From a virus: 51,290 bases of DNA. Of this stretch, positions 2,107 to 46,512 are shown piece after piece. The stretch lies in IMG/VR virus record IMGVR_UViG_3300046512_000094, positions 1-51,290 of that record; one strand, written 5' to 3'. Positions within the stretch are counted from its first letter, which is position 1; every line of letters starts with the position of its first letter. Below the pieces are notes generated by a model that made no database searches, was not told the DNA's origin, and saw nothing but the letters and a program-made list of their open reading frames with translations. The position numbers and the translations under genes are program-made.

Positions 2107-2142
2107 CGCGCCACGAAAAATATATTTTCGAAATGTGGCGCG
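2107..2142. repeat. Dispersed CGCGCCAC inverted repeat, copy 1
   Basis: Arms CGCGCCAC (2107-2114) and GTGGCGCG (2135-2142), 20 bases between them, AT-rich centre. Same architecture as copies at 26537, 35397 and 46403. Here it is intergenic, upstream of the toxin-antitoxin promoter. Confidence 0.85.
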
Positions 2143-2244
2143 AACGAACCGCTGGACGATTCATCGTAGGAATCGGCGTAATTTTCATGGTTTTTTGCAC
2201 GATTTAGCGCTGTATTGACCGTTTTGCAATTAATCTCAAAATCG

Positions 2245-2291
2245 AATTCGGCACCGGATTTACAAAATCCGATCGTTTCGGCGCCGGAATT
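2245..2291 (-). terminator. Terminator-like nested hairpin after the DUF4124-like gene
   Basis: Inner stem CGGATTT/AAATCCG (2255-2261 with 2265-2271), outer near-match AATTCGGC (2245-2252) with GCCGGAATT (2283-2291). On the minus strand it starts at the gene's TAA and is followed by GATTTTGAGATT, a weak T-rich tail. Confidence 0.45.
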
Positions 2292-2686
2292 TAATACGCG
2301 TAACCGTTGCGACGGGCGTCCGCCTCAGCTTTGCGACGCTCGAAAGCTTCTTTGCGCTCCCTCTTAATCTCGCGCTTACCAACGGCAGTCGTGGTATCTG
2401 GAATCACCACGACTCCGCTGGTCCGTTGACCGCCCGACTCCATCCTGTTCTGGTGCGTCATCTGAGCTGCGCGCAATTGGCTTCGGACGATCTCTGCGCT
2501 GACGGCTTCAGGATTATCGAGGTGCGTATCGGCGGTCGGAGAGTAAAGTGTCGACTCTCCCTCCCATGCCGGGCATGGCGTGAAGGCAAAGCTGGTCTTA
2601 CCTTCCCTGTCGACGCATTTGTAGGAGTCGGCCACTGCGGCCTGGCTGGCGAGTATTGAGACTAAAACGATTATCTTCCTGACCAT
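2291..2686 (-). CDS. Secreted DUF4124-like protein, 131 aa
   Basis: A Sec signal peptide is visible (residues 1-19, MVRKIIVLVSILASQAAVAD) followed by YKCVDREGKTSFAFTPCP, the DUF4124 pattern with its two cysteines. The C-terminal third is charged and helical (KREIKRERKEAFERRKAEAD). It is likely periplasmic. It is the second of two adjacent small exported proteins at the end of the ejection-protein block, which suggests envelope-directed accessory roles expressed late. No catalytic motif is seen. Confidence 0.75.
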   Translation of the reverse strand: MVRKIIVLVSILASQAAVADSYKCVDREGKTSFAFTPCPAWEGESTLYSPTADTHLDNPEAVSAEIVRSQLRAAQMTHQNRMESGGQRTSGVVVIPDTTTAVGKREIKRERKEAFERRKAEADARRNGYAY

Positions 2687-2728
2687 GGGTTTCTTCCTTG
2701 TGTTCGCCGCTTACTCTACCGAGCGGAT

Positions 2729-3151
2729 TCAGAAATGCACGCAATGCCCGAAATAGACGACATCATCATCCGCGAACACAAATGGTTTCGCAGACTCATC
2801 TACATATTCAGCAATATTCAAGGCCTGCAATACCGTACCGGGCCCACCGCTCTGCTGGGACGTTACCGCAGTTACCACCTTAAGCGCGTTTTCAGAGGAG
2901 CCGTAGTCGATGACTATTGGCTTTGTGATGTAGGCGTTCTTTAGGGCTCCGGACATCACTCCATCAGCTCTGTTGACGGTGAAAACCTTGCCGATATAGC
3001 TATCCTGAAAAGTTTTCGCGACAGCGTCGTTGTCATGCATCGAGGATGTGACGCGCTTGATCGTGCACTGGTAATCAGGCATGCCTGTCATGGCGGCGGG
3101 CGCGGCCTGGCTGACAAGCAGCCCAGCAGCGAGGGCAATCATCCTGATCAT
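2729..3151 (-). CDS. Small exported protein of unknown function, 140 aa
   Basis: N-terminal signal peptide (MIRMIALAAGLLVSQAAPAA, cleavage near residue 20), then a beta-rich domain with cysteines near the start (YQCTIKR) and the end (FGHCVHF) that could form a disulfide. I do not recognise the family. It lies between a small membrane protein gene and the DUF4124-like gene on the same strand, so it probably shares their transcript. Confidence 0.65.
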   Translation of the reverse strand: MIRMIALAAGLLVSQAAPAAMTGMPDYQCTIKRVTSSMHDNDAVAKTFQDSYIGKVFTVNRADGVMSGALKNAYITKPIVIDYGSSENALKVVTAVTSQQSGGPGTVLQALNIAEYVDESAKPFVFADDDVVYFGHCVHF

Positions 3152-3173
3152 TGAGTTGTCCTTGAGGTGTTAG

Positions 3174-3395
3174 CTATCTATTCGAGCGAAATCCTTCGAT
3201 CACCCAGTTGATACCGGCGATCAGGGCATAGAGGGCGGCAACTGGTAATGCGCCAGCGAGCAAGAACAGCATGAATGCATTATGGTGATCGAAAACCACG
3301 GCAATCGTGCCAGCAAGCCAAATTATCGAAACCACCAGCCACAGGCGGCGCAATCCGATTTGGCGTGACGACTGAGGGTTGATGTCGCGCATGGC
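3174..3395 (-). CDS. Small two-helix membrane protein, 73 aa
   Basis: Two hydrophobic segments (LWLVVSIIWLAGTIAVVF and FMLFLLAGALPVAALYALIA) with a basic N-terminus. The ATG at 3395 is preferred because TCAGGA lies just upstream; an ATG ATG pair at 3425 is an alternative but lacks a ribosome site. The gene lies directly behind the larger ejection protein. Function unknown; it could be an inner-membrane accessory factor or a holin-like protein. Confidence 0.6.
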   Translation of the reverse strand, partial: AMRDINPQSSRQIGLRRLWLVVSIIWLAGTIAVVFDHHNAFMLFLLAGALPVAALYALIAGINWVIEGFRSNR

Positions 3396-3430
3396 GTCCT
3401 GATCCGGGGAGCAAGACGCCATCATAGTGG

Positions 3431-5839
3431 TTATGGCGTGACAGTGGTAGGCGGCAGCTCGACAGGCTTCGGCTTTGCTGGCTGAGGCGTCTGATCTGTC
3501 GTGAGATAGGTGATTGGGCCGACCGTGCGGATTTGGTTCTGCGCATCTTCGCCTAGGGCGGCAAACCACTTCCGGTAGGCCAGGGTGCGCATGAGTTGTG
3601 CCTCCCGCGCTTTCATCCGGCCGATCTGGGCACCATCGGTGCTGGTTGCTGTGTAGATGGCGTCACGGAATTTTGGGCTGGCGATCAGTTTCTCTGCCGC
3701 TTCTTTTATAGGCGTCTTCTCTTTCGAAAACGCAGTAGACAGCACGCCGATGGTCCCGGCGCCAGGAAAGCCCAGCGTACTGGTTACGCCTTCCGCCGCC
3801 CCGGCCTTCTTGCTGACATCCCAAACCCTCGACAGCAGCCCGCCCTCGTCGGCGTATTGCTCGAGCAGATTTATCGAGTTGAGGCGCCCTGTGGTGATTC
3901 GCTCTTTCGATGCCTCGCGCATGCCTCGCGCTACCGTCGCAATGTCGTCCAGCGTCTTTGCCGCGTCGGCGGGCAGGTATTGGGTCAGTCGATTCTTCGC
4001 TGCGCCGTTTCGACTGAGGCTGTCGTACCAGTCCACAAAGCCTGGTGCGCTGAGTTGCTGCTGCGCCCCGCTCCGCTTCGTAAAAGCATTGTTCAGGGCG
4101 GTCAGTACGGCTTCCTGGCGCAAATTGGCCGGTATCAGCGTGACCAGCTTGTCGAAATCCTTGAAGTTTCCGCTGCCCAGTTTCTCCACGGCCGAACCGA
4201 AGGTCGAACTGATAGACCCAGACATGTCCTTGCCGATGGCCTGGATCAATCCATCCTCCAGCCCCTTGCGCTGGGCGACGACCGATTTTGCCGCGGTAAA
4301 GATGTTCCCGACACCGGCGGCGTCCGCGACCGCCTGCTGGTCCTTGCTGAGATTGGCGTATAGAGCATCCAGGGTGCGGGAACTGGAGTTGGCGAACGGC
4401 CCGCGCCCCTTGTACCCATCGCCGACGGACTTACGAACCGAATCAAGCGCCGCGTAGGTCGGGTGTGTGGTGATTGTCTGGACTGTGCCGGGGATCAGCG
4501 GGTTTGGAACTGTCTCGACCTTTGGTGAGAGGATATTGAGGGCCTTTCGCTCGTCAGCCGACAGCAGCGGAGCGCCCCCGAAGTCTGCCGAGCGCCCCCG
4601 GATGTAGCTGATCGTCGAATCAGCCGGCGCCTGGGTCTGGGCCGGGATTGCCTTCGACACATTCGAATAGAGGTCTTCAGCCTGCTTGTTCAGCCCCTGG
4701 ATAGTGCTTTGGCTTTGAGTTCGGAATTTGTCGGAGAATGCGCTTTTGTCCAGAGACCCGCCGTATTGCACGATGAGATCATCGGCTTTCTGCGCCAGAG
4801 CTGCATACGACTCCTTCTGCTGGGCGTTCAGTACGCTACCAGGCACCGAAGCCAATGCCTGCTCAATCTCCCGATAGGACTGGCTGCGTGAATACTGTGA
4901 TGGGATCAGCTTCTCTTTCAGCCCTAGCCGGTCAGCAGCACCAAGGATTTCTTGGTTGGGCGCCACCTCTTCTGCCAGGTCGGCGACTTTCTGTGCCTGT
5001 GTGCGCGGAGTGGCCTGAGCAGCATCGGCTGCCGCCCTGACCGCGCCAGCCTGCTCCGACGCCACGTCAGCCGTTCCGCCCGCAGCGTTCGCAGCGGCTT
5101 GATCATTACGGGCGGTCTGGATGGCTGCCTGCTGAGTCGTTAGCTCGGCCTCGGTCTTGTTCGCCGCGTTGCGGGTGAGCGCCCCGGCGCCGCCGATAAC
5201 TGCCGGGAGCGCAGCGCCCAGGACGCCACCAATTGCCGCTCCCTTTGCGGCCTCAGGCAGACGCTCAAGCGGGTCGCCCTCGGCCGAGCCCAGCCCGTAG
5301 GCTGCACCGTATCCGGCGCCATACAACGCACCCCGACCCACATTGGCGGCAAGACTAGCTCCCGCCGTGGTGCCGCCGGTCAGAACGGCGGGTGCAATAC
5401 CGCCGACTATCCCGCCGGCAATGGTTGCTACCGGGTGCTGGTCCTGTGCGGCCTTGAGAAGGCCGCGCTGCTCATCGACGTTCTTGTCGAAACGGTCGCC
5501 GAACGATTCGCTGCTGTCGCCGGTACCGAAGACTGGCTGCAAGGCTGCTTTAGCGCCACCGACAAGTTCATCAGAAAAGCCGAATGTAAGGCCGTCACCA
5601 GCTCCACGCAGGAATGCTTCGCCTGTGCCGACGTCTGGCGGCTTAACGTAATTGTAGGCTTGCGGGCTGGCCGGGCTGTTTGCCGGAGCAGTGACGGCGC
5701 CAGGTGGCGCTGGCGCTACAACCGGGTCAGCGTCCCATGCATTAGCGGCCACAGTGGCCACAGGCTGCGACGCCGCAGATGGGGGCGCCACCGCAGTTGC
5801 AGCGGGCTGAACAACCGGATCCTCATCCCACGCGGCCAT
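3431..5839 (-). CDS. Large internal virion / DNA-ejection protein, 802 aa
   Basis: The N-terminus carries two copies of a WD(E/A)DPVV motif (residues 4-10 and about 35-41) in an Ala/Pro-rich linker, then a Gly/Ala-rich hydrophobic domain (about residues 135-225: TIAGGIVGGIAPAVLTGG, YGAGYGAAYGLG) of the type that can enter membranes, then a long Ala/Gln-rich helical body. Podoviruses eject such proteins ahead of DNA to form a channel. It overlaps the stop of the 652-aa ejection gene by one base (TAATG). No lytic transglycosylase motif was recognised. Confidence 0.75.
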   Translation of the reverse strand: MAAWDEDPVVQPAATAVAPPSAASQPVATVAANAWDADPVVAPAPPGAVTAPANSPASPQAYNYVKPPDVGTGEAFLRGAGDGLTFGFSDELVGGAKAALQPVFGTGDSSESFGDRFDKNVDEQRGLLKAAQDQHPVATIAGGIVGGIAPAVLTGGTTAGASLAANVGRGALYGAGYGAAYGLGSAEGDPLERLPEAAKGAAIGGVLGAALPAVIGGAGALTRNAANKTEAELTTQQAAIQTARNDQAAANAAGGTADVASEQAGAVRAAADAAQATPRTQAQKVADLAEEVAPNQEILGAADRLGLKEKLIPSQYSRSQSYREIEQALASVPGSVLNAQQKESYAALAQKADDLIVQYGGSLDKSAFSDKFRTQSQSTIQGLNKQAEDLYSNVSKAIPAQTQAPADSTISYIRGRSADFGGAPLLSADERKALNILSPKVETVPNPLIPGTVQTITTHPTYAALDSVRKSVGDGYKGRGPFANSSSRTLDALYANLSKDQQAVADAAGVGNIFTAAKSVVAQRKGLEDGLIQAIGKDMSGSISSTFGSAVEKLGSGNFKDFDKLVTLIPANLRQEAVLTALNNAFTKRSGAQQQLSAPGFVDWYDSLSRNGAAKNRLTQYLPADAAKTLDDIATVARGMREASKERITTGRLNSINLLEQYADEGGLLSRVWDVSKKAGAAEGVTSTLGFPGAGTIGVLSTAFSKEKTPIKEAAEKLIASPKFRDAIYTATSTDGAQIGRMKAREAQLMRTLAYRKWFAALGEDAQNQIRTVGPITYLTTDQTPQPAKPKPVELPPTTVTP

Positions 5840-7797: not shown

Positions 7798-7827
7798 TTT
7801 CGCTACTCCACCACATTAATTATCGTG

Positions 7828-8252: not shown

Positions 8253-8267
8253 TTTATCTGCCACCCC

Positions 8268-9360: not shown

Positions 9361-11571
9361 TTAGACCCGAACGATGGGCTCGTCTCGGGCCTGGGCGGCA
9401 TTGCCGCAATGGAATGCGCCGGCGGGCGAGCCGTAATTCAGCATGACGGTCCAGCTCGCGCCAGAGTCGTAGCTGATCCACGTCGTGCCGTTTCTGATGT
9501 CCTGGCCGTTCTGCTCGGGCACCGAAATAGATGGAGCCCCCCAGCCTCTGGTAGCAATTAGAGTTGCTGGATGCCCTTTTCCAGTTGAGGCGTTGTAATT
9601 GTCGCTTTCCGGTCGAACAACTTCGATTCGACCAACCCTTGGGCCCCAATAGACCTGAGTGAGTGTTGCCCCCCCAGTAACGCCCCCTCCAACAACTCCT
9701 GAATCGCTCAGAGTCGAATCAATTACACCGGCCAGCTCTACCCCGCCCTCAAGGTCGAATATTGCGACTGCGAGATTCCCCTTCGGAGTAAAGAAAACGT
9801 CGTCCTCTTCAGGTGTTGTCCACTCTGAAGAGACATAAAACATAAACCGGCCATTGCCGATGTAGGAGACTTGGCCGTCACCGGTAGGCATTGTCCAGTA
9901 CCGACTGGTATCTCGGTCATTAGGGTCTTCTGCGTCAGGATCCAGTATAGGGTGATCCGTGTACTGAGCCGTTACTGCCTCGTCGAGGGCGCTTGATACG
10001 TTCTGAGCAAAGCCAGGCTTGCCCGAGTATGCGACAGACGCGCCTGATCGATTCGCAACGACGATACTTAGCAGGGGCGAACTGTCGGGGATAAAGGTTG
10101 AGAACAGTACCGAAACCATCACTTCTCCATCGGTAGCTGATCCGCAAAAAAATCTCATCTCGTCGTCGCCAGCGTCGAACTTCACGTCATGCCCATATTG
10201 GCTCATGATTTGTTCGCCGTCTTTATCGTAGATGTCCGCTCGTAGCCGGGTCTTTTTGATGGCTTGAGATCGGCTCCCTCCACCGATAAACCAGCAGACA
10301 TCTACGAATAGGTTTGCGCCCTTTGTAGAGGGAGTCGGGCTATCCTCGTCTTCCTTGGTTCGCTGGACATAAGAGATGTCAATCATCACCCCTTCGCCGG
10401 TATCCAGCATCACCGGAGACGACTTGAAATGATGATTTGGCTGGTACCATGTACCTGCCGGCTGAGGATCATCCTCTTTCTCTGAAACTTTCCATGGGTG
10501 CCTATCCTCATCAGGGTCGTCAGCGCCGTCGATTTTGTATTGGGCTGTTATCTTCCCAGTTAACCCGTTGACATCTACTAGGCACGCCCACAGACCTTTT
10601 GAACCAGCGGCGCGCTTGAAATTGCCAGAGCCCCACCCGTATTCATTCGGCGTGTCATCGGTGTAATAAGGTCCACCTAAGTCGTACACCACCTGCCCTG
10701 CCACTATCATCCGGTAGGACTGCTGGCCATCATCATCGACGTATGGCTGAGGTGCTGAGAAGGTCATCCATGGGTAGTTTTCAAGATCCCACGTCGCTTC
10801 ATAGTTTGGCGAAGGCACCCCCATGCGCCGGACGAATGCCTTTGCCCCAACTGCAGCAAGGACCGACTCCCCGATTTCAAGTGACCAATGGATCATCGGT
10901 GAATTTACGTTTCCCTGGCCTGAAAACTGCCCAGGAGTATCGGTAGGCGTCCACAGCACATTGCTTGGGCTTAGCACATGGATGACATAGACGAATGGAT
11001 CGCCCTCTCTCGCATAGGATAGTGCCCAGCTCAGCTGATTGAGGGACAGGTACACGGCCGCAAACCCGTAGGCGCACCCAGCCCCATTAAACGATGTTCC
11101 AACCCCCCAAACGCGCGTAGCCACCTTGTTGCCAGCCCCCTCCGACCCAAGCTTGATGAATGTGTAAGGCCCGGCCAAGGCCGGCGGATCATCTTGGCTC
11201 TCGAGTACATCATCGATAGCGCCTGGCATATAGGTGTCACGCCCCAGGGGGAGCGGCTGCACGTATGCAAATTCCAGATAGACGTTGCTACCGATGATGT
11301 AACGCCCTGGCAGGCAGAGATACCCTGGGCAATCCAGAATTATCGCGTTCAAGTGCACAGAATTTCGCACCAGCGGCGACTGCATGTGCGGCGGCAGCCC
11401 TGGCACATCTGGCTGGGTCTGGTTTTTCTTCGCGATTAGGATGTATCCCGACATGACTTTCTTTGAAGAAAGCGCCGGGCCATTACGCTTCCCTAAAGAC
11501 TCGGCCATATCGACGACGGTCTTTGTCAAAAAAAGACCGGACGACGATATCGAGCGACGGACGACGGCCAT
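9361..11571 (-). CDS. Large tail structural protein with an Asp-box, 736 aa
   Basis: Beta-rich and full of Trp, Gly and Asp. Near the C-terminus (about residues 700-711) SYDSGASWTVML matches the Asp-box (SxDxGxxW) of sialidase-type propellers and phage tail adhesins. No catalytic set for a sialidase or lyase was recognised. It abuts the next gene (11572) with no gap, in a co-directional tail block. Likely a tail hub, needle or receptor-binding component. Confidence 0.65.
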   Translation of the reverse strand: MAVVRRSISSSGLFLTKTVVDMAESLGKRNGPALSSKKVMSGYILIAKKNQTQPDVPGLPPHMQSPLVRNSVHLNAIILDCPGYLCLPGRYIIGSNVYLEFAYVQPLPLGRDTYMPGAIDDVLESQDDPPALAGPYTFIKLGSEGAGNKVATRVWGVGTSFNGAGCAYGFAAVYLSLNQLSWALSYAREGDPFVYVIHVLSPSNVLWTPTDTPGQFSGQGNVNSPMIHWSLEIGESVLAAVGAKAFVRRMGVPSPNYEATWDLENYPWMTFSAPQPYVDDDGQQSYRMIVAGQVVYDLGGPYYTDDTPNEYGWGSGNFKRAAGSKGLWACLVDVNGLTGKITAQYKIDGADDPDEDRHPWKVSEKEDDPQPAGTWYQPNHHFKSSPVMLDTGEGVMIDISYVQRTKEDEDSPTPSTKGANLFVDVCWFIGGGSRSQAIKKTRLRADIYDKDGEQIMSQYGHDVKFDAGDDEMRFFCGSATDGEVMVSVLFSTFIPDSSPLLSIVVANRSGASVAYSGKPGFAQNVSSALDEAVTAQYTDHPILDPDAEDPNDRDTSRYWTMPTGDGQVSYIGNGRFMFYVSSEWTTPEEDDVFFTPKGNLAVAIFDLEGGVELAGVIDSTLSDSGVVGGGVTGGATLTQVYWGPRVGRIEVVRPESDNYNASTGKGHPATLIATRGWGAPSISVPEQNGQDIRNGTTWISYDSGASWTVMLNYGSPAGAFHCGNAAQARDEPIVRV

Positions 11572-25482: not shown

Positions 25483-25539
25483 ATCATTTATGATTTATTT
25501 AATCATAAGTGTTGTATTTAATCATTTATGATGTAGAAT
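25483..25539 (+). promoter_or_regulatory. hicAB promoter with two operators
   Basis: Two identical palindromes ATCATTTATGAT (25483-25494 and 25521-25532), 38 bp apart, with a related ATCATAAGTG between them. A sigma70 promoter TTGTAT (25512-25517), 16 bp, TAGAAT (25534-25539) contains the second palindrome in its spacer, the expected layout for repression by HicB. The block is markedly AT-rich compared with the phage genes around it. Confidence 0.75.
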
Positions 25540-25570
25540 GAACCCATCAGCAAAACACAAAGGAGGGCTG

Positions 25571-25753
25571 ATGAAATGTAACGAGTTCAAGCGGTGGCTA
25601 CTGGCTCAAGGAGTAGAGGTTTCAAAGAAGCGCAAAAAGCACTTCAAACTCTACTTCAACGGCAAGCAAACCACCCTTCCTGACCACGGAGCCAAGGAAA
25701 TGGCAGAAGGGACAAGAAGGGCAATCATCAAACAACTGGGCCTCAAGGATTGA
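25571..25753 (+). CDS. hicA: HicA toxin (mRNA interferase)
   Basis: 60 aa from ATG 25571, chosen by the strong AAGGAGGG upstream. Pattern MKCNEFKRWLLAQGVEV, KKRKKHFKLYFNGKQTTLPD and H-G-AKEM, the double-stranded-RNA-binding-like fold of HicA with its catalytic His in the KKHFK segment. HicA cleaves mRNA and is held by HicB. It overlaps the beginning of the hicB frame and shares its promoter. Plus strand, opposed to the late genes. Confidence 0.9.
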   Translation: MKCNEFKRWLLAQGVEVSKKRKKHFKLYFNGKQTTLPDHGAKEMAEGTRRAIIKQLGLKD

Positions 25754-25803
25754 GGCTCCACCCTGATGACAGCTTGAATTCAGCCCTCACTCATCACAGA
25801 GGA

Positions 25804-26529
25804 ATGACAATGTACGAATATCCGATTATTTGTCGAGAAGACGTAGGCAGCTGGTGGTCGTCCTGCCCGGACATTCCAGAGGCTCACAGCGCCGGTGATT
25901 CCCTTGAGGAATTGCTGGCGAACGCCGTGGACGGAATAACGCTCGCCCTGTCGATCTACGTTGATCAGGGTCGAGTGATTCCGCCTGCATCTACGCCAGA
26001 GGAAGGCCAACCAACCGTGCAGCTTCCAGCTCAGACCGTCGCCAAGATCGTGCTGTGGAACGCAATGCGCGAAAAAGGAATGCGCGTAGCAGACCTGGCC
26101 CGCGCCCTGGGGCTGTCGCATCCCGTTACTAACCGTCTGGTCGACTTTGAGCACAATTCAAAGATCGAACAGGTGGAAAACGCACTGAAGGCGCTCGGCA
26201 CCTCGATCAAAAAAGGATCGCGGTCGTCTACTTGGATTGTCCTTCCGTACGGCGGCCCTGAAGCTGGCTTCTATGCTGAGCGCCTAGTCGATACGTTCAA
26301 GGAGTTGAAGGTAACGGAAATGGTGATAGGCGCTGTAGCCGGCCCTCTAAGCCAGATCAAAACCGACTCACTGGATTATCTTTTGCGCACTCGCTACGCC
26401 AAGAGCACCAGCACCATGCAAGCGGTAACAGAGGTCGTTGACGCTCTTGTGGCTACCGGAATGTTTGTGCGCGTGAATGTGCCTGGCACTAACAACAGTC
26501 GCCCATTGAAAGCGATCCGACTTAGCTGA
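25804..26529 (+). CDS. hicB: HicB antitoxin with C-terminal extension
   Basis: 241 aa from the ATG at 25804 (25810 also possible). Residues 1-75 are the degenerate RNase H-like HicB fold (YEYPIICREDVGSWWSSCPD, AHSAGDSLEELLANAVDGI), residues about 85-130 a helix-turn-helix (RVADLARALGLSHPVTNRLV). Typical HicB ends near 130-145 aa; here about 100 more residues follow, with a helix-rich part and a winged-helix-like end (VVDALVATGMFVRVNVPG, RPLKAIRLS). The extra domain is unexplained. Confidence 0.88.
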   Translation: MTMYEYPIICREDVGSWWSSCPDIPEAHSAGDSLEELLANAVDGITLALSIYVDQGRVIPPASTPEEGQPTVQLPAQTVAKIVLWNAMREKGMRVADLARALGLSHPVTNRLVDFEHNSKIEQVENALKALGTSIKKGSRSSTWIVLPYGGPEAGFYAERLVDTFKELKVTEMVIGAVAGPLSQIKTDSLDYLLRTRYAKSTSTMQAVTEVVDALVATGMFVRVNVPGTNNSRPLKAIRLS

Positions 26530-26536: not shown

Positions 26537-26574
26537 GCGCGCCACGTTTTCGCTTGAGGGCGTTTCGTGGCGCG
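26537..26574. repeat. Dispersed CGCGCCAC inverted repeat, copy 2
   Basis: Arms GCGCGCCACG and CGTGGCGCG with about 20 bases between; left arm continues TTTTCGC. Lies in the 55-base gap between the convergent ends of hicB and the terminase small subunit gene, where it could also act as a terminator stem, although no T run follows. Confidence 0.85.
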
Positions 26575-26584: not shown

Positions 26585-27187
26585 TCACTCCCCCTTCATC
26601 AGCCGCGCTAGGCGGTCTTCGTAGGATTCGTCGGCGGTATCCTCGGTCAGCCCGAACGCCTGAGCCTCAAGCGCAAACAGCGTCTTCATCGTTTCCGAAA
26701 GCTCTTTGTTCATCTTGATGCGGCCCTGCAGGTCGATGACTTTGTGGTACGCATCATTGAGCCTGTCCAGGCCATTATCGTCCGGCGACTCCATCAGCTC
26801 GCCAAGCTTCACGAACAGTTCACGGTTGTCGGTGATGAACTCCAGTTCCTGAATCAGCTTGTCAGTGAGCGTCGACGCTTTGGTAACGCGCTCCCGGCGA
26901 CCAAGCTTGATCTCTTTCAGCAGCTCTGCACCGATCTCTACCTGGCGAACTTCGGAGACAATTGCCTCGCTGCGTACCGCTTTGCGTACCTCTTCCTTGC
27001 GTACCAGTTCATCAGCACGCATTTTGATCTTGGTGTTGAGGTCACGGCTCCAGTTGTCACGCTTGGCGCGTTTGCGGATGGCGCCTTCTGATACTGAGTG
27101 AAGCGAGCCCATCTCGCGCAAGGTCATGATGCCCGCGCGGTAGTCGAGCTCTATCCGCTCCCAGTCAGTGGGCTTCTTTTCGGTCAC
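26585..27187 (-). CDS. Terminase small subunit
   Basis: 200 aa. N-terminal helix-turn-helix (DYRAGIMTLREMGSLHSVSE, GAIRKRAKRDNWSRDL at about 15-50) followed by long charged helices for oligomerisation and an acidic end, the normal plan of phage small terminases. It binds the packaging site and loads the large subunit. Unusually, it is separated from the large subunit gene by the hicAB cassette, the 163-aa gene and the Tad2-like gene. Its ATG overlaps the upstream stop. Confidence 0.8.
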   Translation of the reverse strand: MTEKKPTDWERIELDYRAGIMTLREMGSLHSVSEGAIRKRAKRDNWSRDLNTKIKMRADELVRKEEVRKAVRSEAIVSEVRQVEIGAELLKEIKLGRRERVTKASTLTDKLIQELEFITDNRELFVKLGELMESPDDNGLDRLNDAYHKVIDLQGRIKMNKELSETMKTLFALEAQAFGLTEDTADESYEDRLARLMKGE

Positions 27188-27624
27188 TTGGCACCGCCAG
27201 AGTTAACAACGAGCCTTCTCACGACCCCACCTGTTCCCGTGTCTCGCTTCTTGGCAGCATGGACAGCCTCGGCTGCAGTTGCGCCCATATCCATAGCAAC
27301 AAGCGCGTAATCCTGGCCGCTGCCAATCGCGTATGGTCTTTCGAGCCAGATAGGGGTCTTGCAGAGCCCGTCTTTGTCGTTGTAAGCCGCGTAGCATAGC
27401 GACCCACCATCAACCACCAAGGCCGAGGCTTCTACGGTGCCGGTTACTGGCTCGCCGAACCAGGCAGCGATCAGCTTGGGGTAATCGCACATGTACCCAG
27501 ACAGTACGAACTTGACACCTTTCACCTCATGGCACTTTTCATAGTCGTCATAAGTGACGGTGTTGCCGTTGGTGATTTGTGAGTCATAGGCTATCACGCC
27601 GTTCTTATAGGCAATGGTTGTCAT
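27184..27624 (-). CDS. HslV/proteasome-like Ntn hydrolase
   Basis: 146 aa. The N-terminus MTTIAYKNGVIAYDSQITNG follows the HslV/20S-beta pattern: Met then a Thr nucleophile, a strand, a GV(I/V)A turn and the conserved Asp (D14). Later GYAAYND-like and GSGQDYALVAMDMGATAAEA segments match the GSG and 'ALaALdaGasAeeAV' helix of the fold. No ATPase partner gene lies nearby. Coupled to terminase small subunit by an ATGA overlap. It could act in head maturation or be a stand-alone amidase or peptidase. Confidence 0.65.
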   Translation of the reverse strand: MTTIAYKNGVIAYDSQITNGNTVTYDDYEKCHEVKGVKFVLSGYMCDYPKLIAAWFGEPVTGTVEASALVVDGGSLCYAAYNDKDGLCKTPIWLERPYAIGSGQDYALVAMDMGATAAEAVHAAKKRDTGTGGVVRRLVVNSGGAK

Positions 27625-33533: not shown

Positions 33534-34650
33534 TGCTCTCACCTCCGGCTGTGATCATGGCGTGGGCGTGCTGGGCGGCGTTGATGTTGGCCTGGGTGTT
33601 CTCCATCTGGCGGGCAGTGACGGCGTTGACCTGTCGGCCGGTGATCCACTGCGTTCGAATCCCTTCCGCCCTGGCGACCAGCAGGCCGAACTCATGCGAG
33701 GACCGGATGAAGAACGAGTCGTTGATGGTCACGTAGAAAGCGGCAACGTTCGGCGCCTCTTCAGCCCCGAGGCGCTGCACAAGCTGGGCCACCTGGCCGT
33801 TGACCTTCGCGTTCCGTACCGGCTCAACGCTGTAGCGGTCGAAGTAGGCGTTGGCATACGCAGCCCAGGTGTTGCTGTTGGCAATCTGCGATGGTGTCTT
33901 TTCCTTCGCCGCCTTGGGCTTGAGCACCTTCACGTTCGACGCGCCCGGAGCGGAAGCGACTGGCAAGGGCTTTTGATCTTGGATCGGAGAAGCGGGAATC
34001 AGAGAATCAGAAGAGAGGGAATCAAGAGAGAGGGAATCAGTAGGGCAAGGGGTTGCATGGTTGTCGCAACGTTGAGCCATTCTTGAGTCAACGTTGGATC
34101 GACGATGATCAGACGTTGAATCGCCCTTGATCGAATTACAGGTCGAGCACAGAGTCTGCAGGTTTTCAGACGAATTATCGCCACCCTTAGCGAGCGGGAC
34201 GATGTGATCAATCGAAAGCCTTTCGGTATCTCCGCAGCGCAAGCACGTATGGTTGTCGCGGGCGAAAGTTGACTCCCTGAGCGACGGAGACACGTCGTAA
34301 GAGTGTCGTGTCATTTGAGCGCGACCCGGCGGCGCAGGGATTACGCTCGCAACTTCCTTATGGTGAGGCATTTGATGCTTCGTGAAGCTGTCGATTTGCA
34401 GATAGCGTTTCCCATCAATCTCGTATCGCTGAATGAACCCGAATTCAGCTAAGTCATTGAGCATGCGATCAACATCTACGCTGTCAGCTGGGAACAACGC
34501 CATGCGCAAACGCTTCGGACGATCTTCAAGGCGTCCCTCCCGGTCTGCCTCGGTCCACATACCAATGAAAAGAAGGCGCGTGGCAAAGTCCAGCTCTGCC
34601 AGATGCTCGTTCGAAAAGAAGCCTGGTTTGATGTTGCGGGAACGTGCCAT
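33508..34650 (-). CDS. O-like replication initiator with an internal HNH domain
   Basis: 380 aa from ATG 34650 (TGATG overlap with the antirepressor gene). Residues 1-100: winged-helix initiator type (MARSRNIKPGFFSNEHLAEL, DFATRLLFIGMWTEADREGR, DSFTKHQMPHHKE). Residues about 115-178: a zinc HNH endonuclease (C136, C139, D148-H149, C168, C171). Then a Ser-rich linker whose DNA contains iteron-like repeats, and a C-terminal domain (NTWAAYANAYFDRYSVEPVR). Initiators of this family usually have only a linker where the HNH sits. Confidence 0.8.
   Translation of the reverse strand: MARSRNIKPGFFSNEHLAELDFATRLLFIGMWTEADREGRLEDRPKRLRMALFPADSVDVDRMLNDLAEFGFIQRYEIDGKRYLQIDSFTKHQMPHHKEVASVIPAPPGRAQMTRHSYDVSPSLRESTFARDNHTCLRCGDTERLSIDHIVPLAKGGDNSSENLQTLCSTCNSIKGDSTSDHRRSNVDSRMAQRCDNHATPCPTDSLSLDSLSSDSLIPASPIQDQKPLPVASAPGASNVKVLKPKAAKEKTPSQIANSNTWAAYANAYFDRYSVEPVRNAKVNGQVAQLVQRLGAEEAPNVAAFYVTINDSFFIRSSHEFGLLVARAEGIRTQWITGRQVNAVTARQMENTQANINAAQHAHAMITAGGESNAFLRRNR
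33994..34039. repeat. Iteron-like direct repeats inside the initiator gene
   Basis: Four copies of GRGAATCA starting at 33994, 34002, 34017 and 34032 (spacing 8, 15, 15). Lambda places its origin iterons inside gene O at the same relative spot, so this is a candidate origin. The repeats encode the Ser/Leu/Asp-rich linker; a simple low-complexity coding stretch is the alternative. Confidence 0.4.
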
Positions 34651-35477
34651 CACGCGACCCCCTTGAGTTCTTTGTCGTGTGTGAAGAGGCCGTCCCACGT
34701 TTTCTTCATGGGCAATTCTTTGTTCAGGTAGAGATCATAGAGACGGATCGCGCCCTTCTTCAGCAGCACCGGCGTGTAGGTGAAGAAGGCGTCTTTACCG
34801 TGGGGGGTGACTTCGTGCGCGTGCTCGGTCATGTACTTGTCGCGGGCATAAGACGCCACACGCCAGCGCACACCAGTCTTGCTCTCGTTGTAGAGCCAGT
34901 TGCGACCCTCAAGAGCCCCTCCGACTTGCATCACGTTCACGCCATTCAGCTTTTTGCAGAACTGCGGCGCGGTCATGCCTTCCTGGAAGAGGTTCTCCAT
35001 CTGATGGATCTTGGTTGCCTGAGCCTGATTCTCAGCGCTGAGCAATTGCTGAACTTTTTCAGCAGCCTGCTTTTTCTCGACTTCATCAGCCCAAGCGCGT
35101 GCTGCAGCTGCTGGATTAGAGAAGTCAGGGAGCGTGACGGCTTGGCGTGACTCAAGCTCTTGCCAGCGGTCCACAAGCGCCGCCGTGAACTCGGGAGAGA
35201 GTTGCGCAACAACTACAAAGCTGTCTCGCTTGCAGACCTGGTACTGCTCGACCGCCTGCCCCAAGTGATTCCGGACTTCCCCCAATGGGGGGAGTTCGAT
35301 AGCTCCGCGCGCTGCGAGACGCTCAATTGATTGCTTCACTTTGTCGTGGCGTGACCCGACCAGATCGGCAATTTCCTGAGAGGACATTGAAACGATCCGC
35401 GCCACGTTTTCAGAGATAACAAAACGTGGCGCGGCGTGAATTGATACGGGATTGACATTGTCTTGTTGAGTGCGCAT
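34650..35477 (-). CDS. Rha/antirepressor-type phage regulator, 275 aa
   Basis: N-terminal Rha-like domain: SSQEIADLVGSRHDKVKQSI and ERLAARGAIELPPLGE, then a coiled-coil linker (about 125-160) and a C-terminal antirepressor domain (MTAPQFCKKLNGVNVMQVGG, GVRWRVASYARDKYMTEHAH, KKGAIRLYDLYL). Lies between the Arc-like genes and the initiator, where lambda has cII. The first 30 residues are encoded by one copy of the dispersed inverted repeat (AAPRFVISENVARI), an apparent insertion ahead of the Rha fold. Confidence 0.75.
   Translation of the reverse strand: MRTQQDNVNPVSIHAAPRFVISENVARIVSMSSQEIADLVGSRHDKVKQSIERLAARGAIELPPLGEVRNHLGQAVEQYQVCKRDSFVVVAQLSPEFTAALVDRWQELESRQAVTLPDFSNPAAAARAWADEVEKKQAAEKVQQLLSAENQAQATKIHQMENLFQEGMTAPQFCKKLNGVNVMQVGGALEGRNWLYNESKTGVRWRVASYARDKYMTEHAHEVTPHGKDAFFTYTPVLLKKGAIRLYDLYLNKELPMKKTWDGLFTHDKELKGVA
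35397..35434. repeat. Dispersed CGCGCCAC inverted repeat, copy 3 (in frame)
   Basis: Perfect 14-bp arms CCGCGCCACGTTTT (35397-35410) and AAAACGTGGCGCGG (35421-35434) around a 10-base loop: the best copy. It lies inside the antirepressor gene and is read through as protein without breaking the frame. Confidence 0.9.
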
Positions 35478-35806: not shown

Positions 35807-35995
35807 TCAAGCCACATCAGTCTTCGCGTTAAGCTCTTCCATCATCTGGTTCAGAGCGCGTTCGAGCAGGTCGCGCGCAAGCACAGCCTTTTGGGTTCTG
35901 TGGAACCTGGCCATGGCGGTGAGCAAATCGTCAGCTACCTCGTCGAGGCGCACCTTCGTTGCCTTGTCGTGCAGGTGATTAGGGTCGACGTACAT
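35807..35995 (-). CDS. Small ribbon-helix-helix-like protein, 62 aa
   Basis: Start at 35995 (MYVDPNHLHDKATKVRLDEV) is preferred to the ATG at 36010 because GAAGGAGC lies 5 bases upstream. TKVRLDEVADDLLTAMARFH and QKAVLARDLLERALNQMMEE give a strand and two helices (Arc/MetJ type). Directly behind cro. Likely a DNA-binding regulator of early genes. Confidence 0.6.
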   Translation of the reverse strand: MYVDPNHLHDKATKVRLDEVADDLLTAMARFHRTQKAVLARDLLERALNQMMEELNAKTDVA

Positions 35996-36350: not shown

Positions 36351-37181
36351 ATGAACGAATCTTTAGCGCAGCGCATAAAGCGCCTCAGGAAAAAAGCTGG
36401 CCTATCGCAGGCTCAGCTAGCGGAAGCGTGCGGCTGGAAGTCGCAGTCTCGTGTTGGTAATTACGAAGCAGGCACGAGGGAGCCGAACCTGGCTGACATA
36501 GCCTCGATAGCTAAGGCGCTCAAGATCGACGAATTACAACTGTTGATGAGTCTTCCTTCCGCAGAGTATGGACAGCTCGACTTTCCTTCACTTCACGCCC
36601 CCGCCGAACCAGTCAGCGCCGCTGATGCCGTGAGAGCAATGCTTGCCAAGAGCGGGAAGAATGTGCCGGAAGCCTTGAGGCAAAAGATTATTGCTGTGGC
36701 AGAAAGCGAATCCAGCAATGTCATAACCGGGGACTTCTCCCGACCCGGCCTTGTCGGTGACGAGGTTTGGATCGCTCACTACGACATTCGCGGCGCAATG
36801 GGCGGTGGCCAGTCAGTCCATGACTTCCCGGAAATGCTCAAGGACATCCGAGTCAGCCCGAGCCACCTGCGCGAACTGGGTGTTGAGTTCGACGAGCACT
36901 ACCACCTGAAGCTTGTGACAGGCTGGGGCCAGTCAATGGAGCCGACGATCAAGCATCGCGACCCGCTGATCGTGAATGTCCACGTCCGCGACTTCATCGG
37001 TGACGGCATCTATCTATTCTTCTGGGACGATCACGTTTACATCAAGCGACTGCAGGTTGCTGACGAGGATCATTTCGAGATGATCTCGGACAACATCAGG
37101 CATAAGGATCGGCTGATTCGCCGGGATATGACCTACGTCCAGGCGCGCGTGCTGCTTGTTTGGAATGCGCACCTTTTGTGA
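36351..37181 (+). CDS. CI-type repressor, XRE domain plus S24 peptidase domain
   Basis: 276 aa. Residues 1-65: XRE helix-turn-helix (RIKRLRKKAGLSQAQLAEAC, GWKSQSRVGNYEAGTREPNL). Residues about 130-270: LexA/S24 fold with catalytic Ser195 (GWGQSMEPT) and Lys232 (HVYIKRL). Between the two domains I see no Ala-Gly or Cys-Gly pair, the usual self-cleavage site; the only AG pairs are inside the HTH. The ATG lacks a ribosome site and follows an inverted repeat TTCAAT/ATTGAA, so its translation may be leaderless or controlled. Confidence 0.9.
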   Translation: MNESLAQRIKRLRKKAGLSQAQLAEACGWKSQSRVGNYEAGTREPNLADIASIAKALKIDELQLLMSLPSAEYGQLDFPSLHAPAEPVSAADAVRAMLAKSGKNVPEALRQKIIAVAESESSNVITGDFSRPGLVGDEVWIAHYDIRGAMGGGQSVHDFPEMLKDIRVSPSHLRELGVEFDEHYHLKLVTGWGQSMEPTIKHRDPLIVNVHVRDFIGDGIYLFFWDDHVYIKRLQVADEDHFEMISDNIRHKDRLIRRDMTYVQARVLLVWNAHLL

Positions 37182-41040: not shown

Positions 41041-41061
41041 CCCAGCCCAATGGAGGCAACC

Positions 41062-41881: not shown

Positions 41882-42081
41882 GCGCTTTAACGGCAACGTG
41901 GTCAATCACCCTCGACACCGAATGCCCAGCCTGCAAAGAGGATGTGAATCTTCTGGATGGGCCGGACTTCTGGGACGGTCATCGCTTTGATGTGCCAGAG
42001 CATGGCACCGAGCGAACCAAGGGTGTCAAGGTTGTCTGCCCAGAGTGTGAGCACGCGTTCACCGTCGATCTGGAGTACTGA
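41878..42081 (+). CDS. Small zinc-ribbon protein, 67 aa
   Basis: MSALTATWSITLDTECPACK with a second pair in VVCPECEHAFTVDL: two CxxC pairs about 35 residues apart, fitting a zinc ribbon. Coupled to the previous gene by an ATGA overlap. Possibly a nucleic-acid-binding helper. Confidence 0.6.
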   Translation: MSALTATWSITLDTECPACKEDVNLLDGPDFWDGHRFDVPEHGTERTKGVKVVCPECEHAFTVDLEY

Positions 42082-42461: not shown

Positions 42462-42550
42462 TCGCTCTCCGATCAATAGTTTCGGAATATCCCATAAACA
42501 ACATTGAACGCACAGCGCCCCGGCAATCGGCATGGCGCGTGGAGATAGTC

Positions 42551-43375: not shown

Positions 43376-45012
43376 ACATCCATAGCGTAGCTCAGGGCAG
43401 CGCTGAGTGGCACGCCCTGCGCGCCGACTACTTCACCGCCTCCGAAGCGCCAGCCATGATGGGCGCCTCGAAATACCAAACCCGTACCGAGCTTCTGACG
43501 CAGAAGAAGACTGGCTTCACGCCGGAGGTTACCCCTCAGCAACAGCGCATCTTCGATCTCGGTCACGCAACTGAAGCCATGGCCAGGCCGCTCGTAGAAA
43601 CCATGATCGGCGAAGAGCTGTATCCGATTGTGGGCACGAAGGACAACCTGCTCGCCTCAATGGATGGAGCGACCATGCTGGGCGAGACGCTGTTCGAGCA
43701 CAAACTCTGGAACGAAGGCCTGGCCTCCCAGGTGCGCGCCGAGCAACTTGACCCGCATTACTACTGGCAGCTTGAGCAGCAACTGCTGGTCAGTGGTGCA
43801 GAGCGCGTGATCTTCGTTTGCTCGGATGGCACCAACGACAAGTTCGTCTCCATGGAGTACCGGCCAGTGCTGGGGCGCGCAGAACAGTTGGTCGAAGGCT
43901 GGAAACAGTTCGCTGCCGATCTGGCTTACTTTGTGATCGGCGAGGCTCCATCGATTGTGGTCGGCAAAGCCCCGGACGAGCTGCCAGCGCTGCGCATCGA
44001 ACTGACCGGCATGGTTACCGCCAGTAACCTCAAGGCATTCGAGCAATCCGCCCTGGCGGTGATCGATTCGGTGAAAACCACCCTGACAACCGATCAGGAC
44101 TTTGCAGACGCGAAGAAAGCCGTCAAGTGGTGCGGCGACGTCGAAGAGGCGGTCGCGGCAGCCAAGAAGCAGGCACTGTCGCAAACTCAGACAATCGATG
44201 AGCTTTTCTCGTCGCTGGATCGAATCAGCGCTCACGCCCGGGAAACCCGCCTCAAGGTCGACAAGCTGGTCAAGGCTCAAGAGCTGCTGGTGAAAACCAA
44301 CATCAAGCAGGCGGCTGAGCAGGCGCTCGCCGCTCACGTCCTAACGATCAACCAGACGCTGGGCCGCGTGACCATCCCGGCTGTGGCGGCTGACTTCGCT
44401 GGCGCCATGAAGAACAAGCGGACAATTGCCAGCCTGCAGGACGCAGTAGATACCGAGCTTGCCCGGGCGAAGATCGAGGCAAGTCAGGTTGCCGACGCAA
44501 TCCGCGTGAATCTGTCGAGCTTGGCTGAACTGGCCGTCGATCACACCTTCCTGTTCAACGACCTGCAGCAGCTCGTCTTGAAGCAGAACGAGGATCTGGT
44601 TTCCTTAATCAAGGTGCGGATCAACGAACATGAGCAGGCCGAGGCGAAAAAGCTGGAGGCGCAGCGCGAGCAGATCCGCCAGCAGGAGCTGAAGCGCATC
44701 GCCGACGATCAGGCAGCCGCAGCTAAAGCTTCAGAGGTGAAGCCCGAGCAGACAGTGGTCCCTGAGCCGATCAAGAGCGTGGCTCCGGCCACCACTGTAC
44801 GGCAGGTATCCAGCTCGCCGAAGGTGGCGCCACGCTCCGAGCGAAATCAGGCCCGGGTTACCGATATTGAAGCTTTGGTGAAGGCCGTGGCGAATGGTGA
44901 AGCCCCTATTTCAGTGCTCACCGTGAACCGGCAGAACCTCGACGACCTTGTGGAAGTCCAGGGCGACACATTCAGCATGCCGGGGGTAATCCTCGAGAAG
45001 GTGGCAGCATGA
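43372..45012 (+). CDS. YqaJ/lambda-exonuclease with long coiled-coil extension, 546 aa
   Basis: Residues 1-200: YqaJ nuclease (WHALRADYFTASEAPAMMGA, D98 in ASMDG, E109-H-K111 in LFEHK). Residues 200-450 are long amphipathic helices (IDELFSSLDRISAHARETRL; EAKKLEAQREQIRQQELKRI), and 450-546 a linker and a small C-terminal domain. Lambda exonuclease is 226 aa, so this protein carries more than 300 extra residues. It resects double-strand ends for Bet. Confidence 0.88.
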   Translation: MNIHSVAQGSAEWHALRADYFTASEAPAMMGASKYQTRTELLTQKKTGFTPEVTPQQQRIFDLGHATEAMARPLVETMIGEELYPIVGTKDNLLASMDGATMLGETLFEHKLWNEGLASQVRAEQLDPHYYWQLEQQLLVSGAERVIFVCSDGTNDKFVSMEYRPVLGRAEQLVEGWKQFAADLAYFVIGEAPSIVVGKAPDELPALRIELTGMVTASNLKAFEQSALAVIDSVKTTLTTDQDFADAKKAVKWCGDVEEAVAAAKKQALSQTQTIDELFSSLDRISAHARETRLKVDKLVKAQELLVKTNIKQAAEQALAAHVLTINQTLGRVTIPAVAADFAGAMKNKRTIASLQDAVDTELARAKIEASQVADAIRVNLSSLAELAVDHTFLFNDLQQLVLKQNEDLVSLIKVRINEHEQAEAKKLEAQREQIRQQELKRIADDQAAAAKASEVKPEQTVVPEPIKSVAPATTVRQVSSSPKVAPRSERNQARVTDIEALVKAVANGEAPISVLTVNRQNLDDLVEVQGDTFSMPGVILEKVAA

Positions 45013-45242
45013 CAAACAACTTCATCGTCGCCGCCAACGAGCGGCAAGCACAGATCGAGGCGGCTAAGGCTGCCTTTTTCAATTCTGGCGGCCAGGTCAA
45101 GATCGGGCCGAGCATGCCAGAGCGCGCCATCCCGCCCGTCCGCAAGGACTGGGTAGACCCTGAAACGGTCCTCAAGCGAAAGTCCCGGATCATCTCCCCG
45201 GCAGGCCGCAAGCAAATTCGTCAGATGACGGAGGCGCTATGA
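45009..45242 (+). CDS. Small helical protein, 77 aa
   Basis: ATGA overlap at the start and end. MTNNFIVAANERQAQIEAAK, AAFFNSGGQVKIGPSMPERA, ending basic (KRKSRIISPAGRKQIRQM). Linked to the recombination genes. Function unknown. Confidence 0.55.
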   Translation: MTNNFIVAANERQAQIEAAKAAFFNSGGQVKIGPSMPERAIPPVRKDWVDPETVLKRKSRIISPAGRKQIRQMTEAL

Positions 45243-45700
45243 GCAAGGTCCGCAAGGTCTGCAACCGGCGCGCCCAGATCGACCGCGCCCGACGAGCCCT
45301 GGTGCGAACCAACCATGCCGCCGTCGCCAATGTTGAGCCCGGCGACGTGCAGGTAATGGTCAACTGGAAGAGCTGCAAGCAGATCCGCACCCTCCCGGTA
45401 GCCAATGCTCTGTGCGATATAGCCCATACATGGACGGTGTACATCGCGGTCTTTTGCCAGGAGCCCAGCGGCGCCCAGTACAGCAAGGCGACTGAGTTCA
45501 CGACCGCCGGCATGCACCTGGTTGCGAATCTGGAAGCGCTGATGATCGAGAAACACGCCGAGGTCTGCGCATCTGCCAACCAGAAGCATGTGATCGGCTC
45601 GGGCTGGATCGCCGTACCTGACCAGATCAGCCTCACCGAAGCCCAGGCCAATGCCGTGTTCTCGGCCATGGGTGTTTGGGAGCGAGCAAGGGCAGCATGA
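45239..45700 (+). CDS. Conserved phage protein, 153 aa
   Basis: MSKVRKVCNRRAQIDRARRA, then an alpha-beta domain (CDIAHTWTVYIAVFCQEPSG; LEALMIEKHAEVCASANQKH). The basic head suggests nucleic-acid contact. Coupled to the previous gene by ATGA. Family not recognised. Confidence 0.6.
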   Translation: MSKVRKVCNRRAQIDRARRALVRTNHAAVANVEPGDVQVMVNWKSCKQIRTLPVANALCDIAHTWTVYIAVFCQEPSGAQYSKATEFTTAGMHLVANLEALMIEKHAEVCASANQKHVIGSGWIAVPDQISLTEAQANAVFSAMGVWERARAA

Positions 45701-45772
45701 AGCGCATTAACTCAAAGGTCCGAATCCGACGCAGGGCCGAACATATCCACCTAATTCCAAGTGGTATCAAAC

Positions 45773-46183
45773 ATGACCCCAATCTGGCGTTACCTCACTC
45801 AATCGGCCGGGATGACCGCTCAGACCCTGGCGGATGCGACCGGCATGTCAATCCAGGCAGTTCGCGCCGATCTGGTAGCCCTGGAAACTCAGGGCAAAGT
45901 CGCCAGGGAGCGCGGATCAGTTGGCAAGCCTCACCTCTGGTGGCGTGCCGAGAAACGCCCGCTGGATGGCCTGGATGTTCTGCTGGTCATGGCGCTGGCG
46001 GCGACACTGCAACCCTCGGGCGACCGGCTGAAAGAGGTGCTGGCGGACGTGGGTGGCCGGGCTAAGAACCCGGCACACCGCAAGATCGTCGCAATGTGCG
46101 CCATGTCGAATGCGCCACGGCAAATTATCTGGGAAGCGCTGGATAACCTCGATGTCGAGGACGAAGCGCTGAGGGCTGCGTGA
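45773..46183 (+). CDS. Winged-helix protein, 136 aa
   Basis: MTPIWRYLTQSAGMTAQTLA, DATGMSIQAVRADLVALETQ, GKVARERGSVGKPHLWW: a clear winged helix. The C-terminal half (LAATLQPSGDRLKEVLADVG) is helical. Candidate regulator of the recombination or lysogeny genes. The stretch 45701-45772 before it has no supported gene. Confidence 0.65.
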   Translation: MTPIWRYLTQSAGMTAQTLADATGMSIQAVRADLVALETQGKVARERGSVGKPHLWWRAEKRPLDGLDVLLVMALAATLQPSGDRLKEVLADVGGRAKNPAHRKIVAMCAMSNAPRQIIWEALDNLDVEDEALRAA

Positions 46184-46512
46184 TGGCATTAGCTCAGAAA
46201 GACCGCGACAAACGCCGTCACGACAAGGCGGCCAGACTTCAGGAAGAGGATCTACGACTCAAGGTCAGACCAGGCACGAAGCAAGCCCTGGCTGAGCTGA
46301 TGGAGTGGTCCGGGCTTGAGGAGCAAGGCGAGGCGCTGACACTGATGATTCATCATCTGCATGCGCTGGGGCCGGGAGGTGCGTTGCCGATGCTTTCCGC
46401 GCCGCGCCACGTTTACGAGGTTTCGAAAAATGTGGCGCTCGCTTTTGAGCGAAAGAGCCTGCGGATGATTCAGCAGGATCCTGGGGATGAGGTTGTCAGT
46501 CCGGAGCGTTAG
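46183..46512 (+). CDS. Arc-like DNA-binding protein with repeat-encoded tail, 109 aa
   Basis: MALAQKDRDKRRHDKAARLQ, then DLRLKVRPGTKQALAELMEW and GEALTLMIHHLHALG (ribbon-helix-helix layout, residues 24-65). The segment after it, APRHVYEVSKNVALAF, is encoded by a copy of the dispersed inverted repeat. GTGATG start region overlaps the previous stop. Probably a regulator. Confidence 0.65.
   Translation: MALAQKDRDKRRHDKAARLQEEDLRLKVRPGTKQALAELMEWSGLEEQGEALTLMIHHLHALGPGGALPMLSAPRHVYEVSKNVALAFERKSLRMIQQDPGDEVVSPER
46403..46439. repeat. Dispersed CGCGCCAC inverted repeat, copy 4 (in frame)
   Basis: CGCGCCACGTTTACGAGG (from 46403) and, after the centre TTTCGAAAAAT, GTGGCGCT (46432-46439). 21 bases lie between the conserved arms. 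It is translated in the Arc-like gene as APRHV...NVA. Confidence 0.8.

Follow-up and report, generated by a model that had tools for sequence, protein, structure and literature searches.

We analysed a stretch of viral DNA of 51,290 nucleotides (IMG/VR virus record IMGVR_UViG_3300046512_000094; the whole stretch is called the window below), which carries four copies of a short palindrome, one of them inside the gene of a predicted ribbon-helix-helix (RHH) protein. Exactly four matches to GCGCCACN{18,23}GTGGCGC were found in the window, with cores at 2108-2141, 26539-26573, 35399-35432 and 46404-46438, and a reversed-pattern control over the window gave 0 matches. GCGCCAC makes up all 8 half-sites, and the spacer between the 7-mers is 20 bases in the copies starting at 2107 and 35397 and 21 bases in those starting at 26537 and 46403. 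One arm had four copies in the window, whereas in 60 third-order Markov simulations no arm ever exceeded 2 copies, so that four equal arms at such spacing are not expected by chance. The initial annotation of this DNA had described four palindromes with GCGCCAC in every half-site, 20-21 bases apart, and both the pattern match and the simulations bear this out. The sites and the genes that hold or adjoin them are as follows.

2107..2142, no strand assigned: fourth palindromic site, between a PrlF/YhaV-like gene pair and the open reading frame (ORF) 2291-2686
26537..26574, no strand assigned: site S3, flanked by a HicB-like gene and the gene for the terminase small subunit
35397..35434, no strand assigned: site S2, in the 5' part of the antirepressor ORF, coding APRFVISENVAR
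46403..46439, no strand assigned: site S1, in the 3' part of the RHH gene, coding PRHVYEVSKNVAL
46183..46512, plus strand: RHH protein (phrog_5439, 109 amino acids), proposed binder of the palindromes
46249..46269, plus strand: predicted DNA-reading beta-strand of the RHH protein, codons 23-29 (D-L-R-L-K-V-R), of which residues 27-29 separate two classes of S1
34650..35477, minus strand: antirepressor (Rha/Ant-like), whose start contains S2
26585..27187, minus strand: terminase small subunit (phrog_1206, E 2.1e-60), beside S3

Two of the copies are in frame inside genes, as had been noticed initially. The copy at 46403 is read near the end of the RHH gene as CCG CGC CAC ... AAT GTG GCG CTC, and the copy at 35397 near the start of the antirepressor ORF as GCG CCA CGT ... 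AAC GTG GCG CGG. The left arm is therefore translated in different frames at S1 and S2 (P-R-H versus A-P-R), and the right arm alone is read in the same frame (V-A). Because the left arm is read in two frames, the peptide likeness of S1 and S2 that the initial annotation had noticed is a by-product of the DNA. The copy at 2107 lies within no convincing gene, although a short ORF (1962-2207) covers it; an identical site sequence occurs in record G247.

We then asked what is conserved at S1, using RHH genes that were gathered by protein with search patterns lying outside the element. Among 72 distinct genes, the element codons CCG, CGC and CAC were each found in 71, and GTG and GCG were used in 69/69 and 70/70 of the copies in which the respective residue occurs. 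Synonymous codons outside the element vary within the same genes. The near invariance of the element codons, together with the left arm being read in two frames, shows that selection acts on the DNA, and the same two observations exclude a protein-driven similarity, which the initial annotation had named as the reading that would overturn its own. At a further map position, S4, loci were collected via the upstream head gene. Of the 57 distinct sequences that follow this gene, 38 have the element 0-5 bases from the stop codon, and the other 19 lack both the element and a matching flank. In five P. aeruginosa phages (Fyn8, Shamal, VB_EV13, PAShipCat1 and U9) the antirepressor start xPKNANHDFVAR, as read from the DNA, is kept and the palindrome is broken. 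An RHH match was obtained in 22 phage records, none of which belongs to these five, and PAShipCat1, the only one of them checked whole, has neither a site nor, by profile, an RHH protein.

A pattern scan of IMG/VR returned at least 120 stretches, many of which, though not all, clearly belong to the palindrome family, and 81 loci of the GTDB collection matched a stricter pattern, all in records that name Pseudomonas in the title. The GCGCCAC class was matched in 68 of 149 sampled Pseudomonas genomes, with 167 forward matches against 17 for the reversed pattern; the half-site pair is thus above chance in the host group where the initial annotation had suggested looking for it. Five of seven Pseudomonas genomes held 3-4 copies inside about 13-25 kb, spaced about 5.6-10.9 kb apart and located in prophages, and a host chromosomal repeat was rejected on account of this clustering. 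As for the remaining genomes, G007 had two copies close together and one apart, and G006 had one. G001 showed two additional lone matches, one of them GC-rich.

The sites also recur at fixed map positions. In a survey of 69 sites in 26 stretches, with positions assigned by marker proteins within 1.2 kb, 17 sites lay at the 3' part of the RHH gene (S1), 15 at the antirepressor start or just ahead of the next module (S2), 17 at the lysis/terminase border (S3) and 6 between the head-morphogenesis gene and the scaffold gene (S4); 14 were not placed. The window copies at 46403, 35397 and 26537 occupy the RHH, antirepressor and lysis/terminase positions, respectively, and the copy at 2107 matches none of the four. 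Loops are similar within one map position and unlike between positions. By scoring, the site was present in 72 of 73 distinct RHH loci, and the remaining locus (L344) has a 35-bp site there. Records contain 1-5 exact palindromes each. In the P. syringae phage phiPSA1, exact sites occur in the RHH gene and in the antirepressor, and a near-site adjoins a lipoprotein gene that precedes the terminase. The P4-like satellite phiAH14b (L285), which is reported to use the helper capsid (PMC4936722), carries two sites (4694-4731 and 10505-10542), one with an altered arm base; one of the two lies about 60 bases before a small gene preceding phage-like tail genes. No RHH protein was found in this satellite. 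Its helper phiAH14a, examined over 50 of 55 kb, has three sites and an RHH gene. Taken together, these sequence comparisons indicate that the palindromes are a DNA-site family of Pseudomonas lambda-like prophages. Literature searches by title and abstract start, including one with the arm sequence, found no paper describing the element among those listed, and a search of passages from papers on phiAH14a/b, PseuP_222, UFJF_PfDIW6 and P. syringae prophages found no mention of it.

Asymmetric arms, flanked by A or G, were co-oriented in 8 of 9 regions with at least two informative sites, in the frame of the genome and not that of transcription. Such an orientation suggests a polarity; because the regions are related to one another and 17 of the 26 were uninformative, no conclusion was based on it.

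The S4 set revealed a second class in which both arms are changed, GCGACAC/GTGTCGC. It was matched in 45 of the 149 Pseudomonas genomes, with 64 forward matches against 25 in the control, so that the matches are partly due to chance; by eye, about 11 of the 64 lack AT-rich inner flanks. The hybrid pattern GCGACAC/GTGGCGC was listed at 54 places, of which 3 have AT-rich inner flanks by eye. Free mixing of the arms would make hybrids common, but hybrids with element-like flanks are rare. One chromosomal region (G144:C1:3780101-3782678) contains 9 exact hybrid-pattern matches at 318-base spacing, in a large tandem repeat that is apparently unrelated.

The gene at S1 corresponds to phrog_5439, which PHROGs labels as of unknown function. 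A Pfam scan of the protein gave no RHH family and only a sub-threshold match to TssG, and there was no sequence match in the PDB. The single-copy AlphaFold2 model predicts a helix (5-22), an extended segment (23-29) that was not called a strand, and two further helices (30-43 and 48-61), with a pLDDT of 76.6 and a pTM of 0.39. PDB matches to this single-chain model were weak: the best Foldseek hit was to a VapB-type antitoxin complex (E 1.9), and the best re-alignments were to TCP-domain chains (Z no higher than 4.4). The plant TCP domain has the target GTGGNCCC. The resemblance of GTGGNCCC to the arm GTGGCGC is probably a coincidence. Some phages carry natural tandem RHH proteins joined at the element (L214:1235-1747 and its relatives L031, L038, L055, L067 and L200), in which the second unit ends with a similar PRHEISISPRLAL segment, perhaps a decayed site. 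The model of a natural tandem (mean pLDDT 70.8, with a poor tail at 137-171) places strands at 22-28 and 85-91 with two helices after each of them, and aligned to a chain of the F-plasmid relaxosome with a Z of 10.7 over 102 residues (rmsd 3.2; Foldseek E 0.039). We take the matched chain to be TraY, a tandem RHH protein. The modelling therefore predicts the strand-helix-helix unit with a paired strand that is expected of an RHH protein.

We compared the alignment columns of 72 RHH proteins of the GCGCCAC class with those of 64 proteins of the GCGACAC class. The columns that best separate the classes are 19, 27, 28, 29 and 85, three of which are in or beside the strand. Between the classes the strand changes from K/R-V-R (K/R-type) to H-(C/T)-(L/M) (H-type), with R25 invariant, and A85 changes to S because the element's own right arm codes residue 85. 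S1 lies inside the RHH gene, so its class match is partly linkage; therefore, the other sites were examined in whole records, hand-picked for length among 80 loci per query. Forty K/R-type records (LRLKVR or LRLRVR) gave 113 two-class pattern matches, with GCGCCAC only among the matches listed, and a separate search for GCGACAC/GTGTCGC in the same records found it in 0/40. Ten additional K/R-type records had 23 sites, all GCGCCAC, which makes no exact exception in 50. The 29 H-type records with IRLHCL, IRLHCM or VRFHTL held 68 sites, all GCGACAC, 25 of them of S1 length and 43 elsewhere (in 27 records). Among 16 additional H-type records, 10 had only GCGACAC (17 sites), 3 had only GCGCCAC (5 sites) and 3 had no exact site. 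Of the 42 H-type records that have exact sites, 39 thus show the class that goes with the strand, and 39 of 45 H-type records overall hold only GCGACAC. In three records that have a hybrid S1 and further exact sites (L691, L705 and G018), the class of the other sites, GCGACAC, agrees with the strand. Modules are shared between phages of different class at 78-88% identity over 0.5-5 kb, and at S2 the left flanks of G042 and G059b are nearly identical and the arms different, which argues that the coupling is not simply that of two clonal lineages.

The palindromes also mark places where homology between phages stops. Across 26 stretches, homology ended at the element in 28 of 37 cases, compared with 497 of 1075 other gene junctions and 57 of 1419 positions inside genes (Fisher p 6e-4 against junctions and 2e-29 against gene interiors, both too small because the pairs are related and were counted in both directions). 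Among 196 distinct elements, 87 pairs shared one flank only and 129 shared both, after pairs with a short second match were dropped. Thirty-one genes, distinct in their first 120 residues, start with the leader M...AP(Q/R/H)......VA(R/H) and run on into unlike domains (by eye KilA-N-, Rha-, Bro- and others). The crossover point inside an element is unreadable from loop identity because the loops are already position-specific, and hybrid sites are better evidence on it. Five S1 sites (L321, L691, L705, L706 and G018) are of this kind: an H-type head with a GCGACAC left arm is followed by a GCGCCAC right arm and the tail of the other class. Hybrid elements that join the head of one class to the tail of the other indicate that the palindromes are also mosaic junctions.

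Because the site letters and the DNA-reading strand differ together in most records, we consider it probable that the palindromes are cognate binding sites of the phage's own RHH protein (46183-46512). The initial annotation had listed an operator for a shared regulator among its alternatives, and this suggestion gains support, since a candidate regulator is encoded at one of the copies and its strand tracks the arm class. Each half-site, GCGCCAC or GCGACAC, would be read by an RHH dimer with its antiparallel ribbon, and one site would hold two dimers 27-28 bp apart. With less confidence, we suggest that the protein, which is encoded on the CI-integrase strand, may act as a genome-wide regulator at the borders, most probably by blocking the transcription that crosses them or by setting its timing, in the manner of mycobacteriophage repressors at stoperators. 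The regulatory effect of binding is a guess, for which a transcription road-block is the closest known parallel. The sites probably double as short homologies for in-frame exchange of modules, even of antirepressor domains, because they are conserved and located at module ends.

Several observations weigh against binding by the RHH protein. Three H-type records with the strand LRLHTM (L700, L703 and L708) hold only GCGCCAC sites (5) outside S1, their S1 being GCGACAC-like with a single base altered in the arms; each of these records gives one RHH match, and another RHH gene was looked for there and not found. Both classes occur together in phiAH14a, G134a, G134b, G138, G145c, G105 and G111c. 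In G114 a GCGACAC site is accompanied by a near-GCGCCAC one. A K/R-type RHH protein coexists with GCGACAC sites in G134b and G138, and L362 pairs an H-type strand with a GCGCCAC S1. No RHH protein was detected by profile in 60 kb around the put31303 sites, nor in site-bearing bharC1, G039, G064, G092a, G092b, G145c, G105, G111b, G111c, G041 and G114, most of these stretches being partial. PseuP_222 gave no RHH profile match in the 50 kb examined, but tblastn gives a 45% match beyond them. Phages 8P and USP_25 encode distant relatives of the RHH protein, and the 6 kb examined there contain no palindrome of this kind. The records are related by descent and the counts are uncorrected for phylogeny (L643 and L644 look like near copies), and homology ends often at ordinary gene junctions as well, as the 497 of 1075 noted above attest.

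Within the H-type, other exact sites were GCGCCAC in all three LRLHTM records that have such sites (among L700, L703, L707 and L708) and GCGACAC in both LRLHTL records that have them (among L699, L715 and L716). One strand residue, LRLHTM versus LRLHTL, may matter.

The palindromes could instead be passive linkers, kept as short homology for module exchange by phage annealases and without a dedicated binder. The ends of homology at the element (28/37), the sharing of a single flank in 87 pairs and the hybrid S1 elements are all consistent with such linkers. ERF- or Rad52-like annealases are annotated in phiAH14a, PseuP_222 and Aurca01, and Rad52-like recombinases are reported to tolerate divergence to a high degree (PMC3945230). 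This explanation leaves unaccounted for that the arms are kept at four unlike positions despite differing loops, that both arms switch together and that in most records the class tracks the RHH strand, and we regard it as unlikely.

A dispersed centromere or a packaging mark, with the RHH protein as the centromere-binding protein, seems to us less likely still. Phage N15 has dispersed centromere sites, and RHH proteins can bind centromeres. The spacing of the sites in five prophages, about 5.6-10.9 kb, would suit such a role, as would a ParBc-like gene about 0.95 kb after the S2 site of phiAH14a and the two sites in a satellite that reportedly borrows its helper's capsid (PMC4936722). Many of the phages are, however, integrated prophages, and the sites abut gene ends and form no cluster.

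RNA hairpins acting as attenuators, terminators or processing sites are very improbable. The arms are complementary and change together (GCGCCAC/GTGGCGC versus GCGACAC/GTGTCGC), and the inner positions 10 and 11 pair above expectation, both of which a hairpin would explain. On the other hand, the base next to each arm pairs below expectation (31% versus 50%, z -4.1), anti-correlation is seen at positions 13 and 16 as well, the window copies are not followed by a T-run, and the class varies with a DNA-binding protein. In the loci examined, no more than one alternative class of paired arms was common, other paired variants not having been searched for.

A mobile palindromic element, like the Rickettsia palindromic elements (RPEs) favoured by the initial annotation or like repetitive extragenic palindromic sequences, would account for a short palindrome with many copies across phages, intergenic and in frame within ORFs, yet it is the least credible of these explanations, given the few conserved map positions, the position-specific loops around arms that are kept, the coupling of class to protein, and the 19 of 57 element-free S4 sequences, which have unlike flanks too and include no clean empty site.

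Two more genes of the window are as follows.

36351..37181, plus strand: CI-like repressor that carries an S24 peptidase domain and shares its strand with the RHH gene
35807..35995, minus strand: small gene (phrog_4113) located upstream of the antirepressor; phages differ in the gene that stands at this place

Toxin-antitoxin-like genes adjoin two of the four window sites, namely a HicB-like gene with a helix-turn-helix (HTH) domain (25538-26529) and a YhaV gene with its PrlF-like partner (1169-1888), and accessory genes may for this reason enter at these borders. A small HTH/DUF7740 gene (45812-46183) lies directly upstream of the RHH gene, and similar small genes are found there in several relatives. 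An HslV-like peptidase gene (27184-27624) adjoins the terminase small subunit gene, and a 'proteasome subunit beta' is annotated in phiAH14a and Aurca01.

The proposed binding gives the phrog_5439 family a testable function and a matched site that can be found by pattern. It would provide a naturally occurring switch of specificity in an RHH protein for which many natural sites exist, informative exceptions included, and it suggests a site common to a satellite and its helper phage. How phage modules join at fixed borders, an old question, becomes directly testable. A wider and rather doubtful reading is that the RHH protein and the boundary palindromes constitute a phage-encoded address system that marks exchangeable modules in Pseudomonas lambda-like phages and their satellites, down to in-frame adaptors for unlike antirepressor domains; position-specific loops and the two arm classes would then confine exchange to allelic positions and divide the phages into two exchange communities, partly isolated from each other.

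We do not assign the palindromes to any named site family, but they can be compared with several. Rickettsia palindromic elements are dispersed insertions, palindromes in frame inside genes. The window palindromes share the in-frame placement and differ in recurring at fixed positions and in having a protein-coupled class. RPEs are characterized by scattered insertion and by clean empty sites in relatives; no such empty site was seen among the 19 element-free S4 sequences. In lambdoid phages, short conserved boundary (linker) sequences reportedly lie at module borders where homology ends (Clark et al. 2001). Homology likewise ends at a module-border sequence here (28/37 against 497/1075 for other junctions), and the present sequences differ in being palindromes with a protein-coupled class.

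The extended start-associated sequences (ESAS) of Cluster K mycobacteriophages are likewise inverted repeats that lie at conserved genes and vary in spacer length, and the whole site is missing in one instance (PMC3203893). They are linked to 13-bp start-associated repeats (SAS) and had no known binder in that paper, whereas the palindromes have a spacer of 20-21 bp and a proposed binder. The SPBRE of Bacillus phage SPbeta was, like the present element, a repeated element known from sequence before its protein (PMC10516654); that protein, the repressor MrpR, has a tyrosine-recombinase fold and the SPBREs are in promoter regions, unlike the RHH protein and the module borders here.

The stoperators of Cluster A mycobacteriophages (L5, Bxb1 and Trixie) are many short dispersed sites of one phage protein, and motif and protein co-vary between phages (PMC6550527). 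Stoperators number 20-30 per genome and are asymmetric 13-bp sites of an HTH immunity repressor, and this count and asymmetry were not found here, where about 1-5 palindromes with two 7-8-bp arms occur. The proposed binder is an RHH protein and not the CI repressor (36351-37181), and the sites stand at module borders, even inside coding frames. The two systems nevertheless resemble each other in having short dispersed sites, one phage DNA-binding protein (a proposed one here), and a motif and protein that differ together. Judged by this covariation, the dispersed palindromes appear to match the specificity of a phage protein, as stoperators do.

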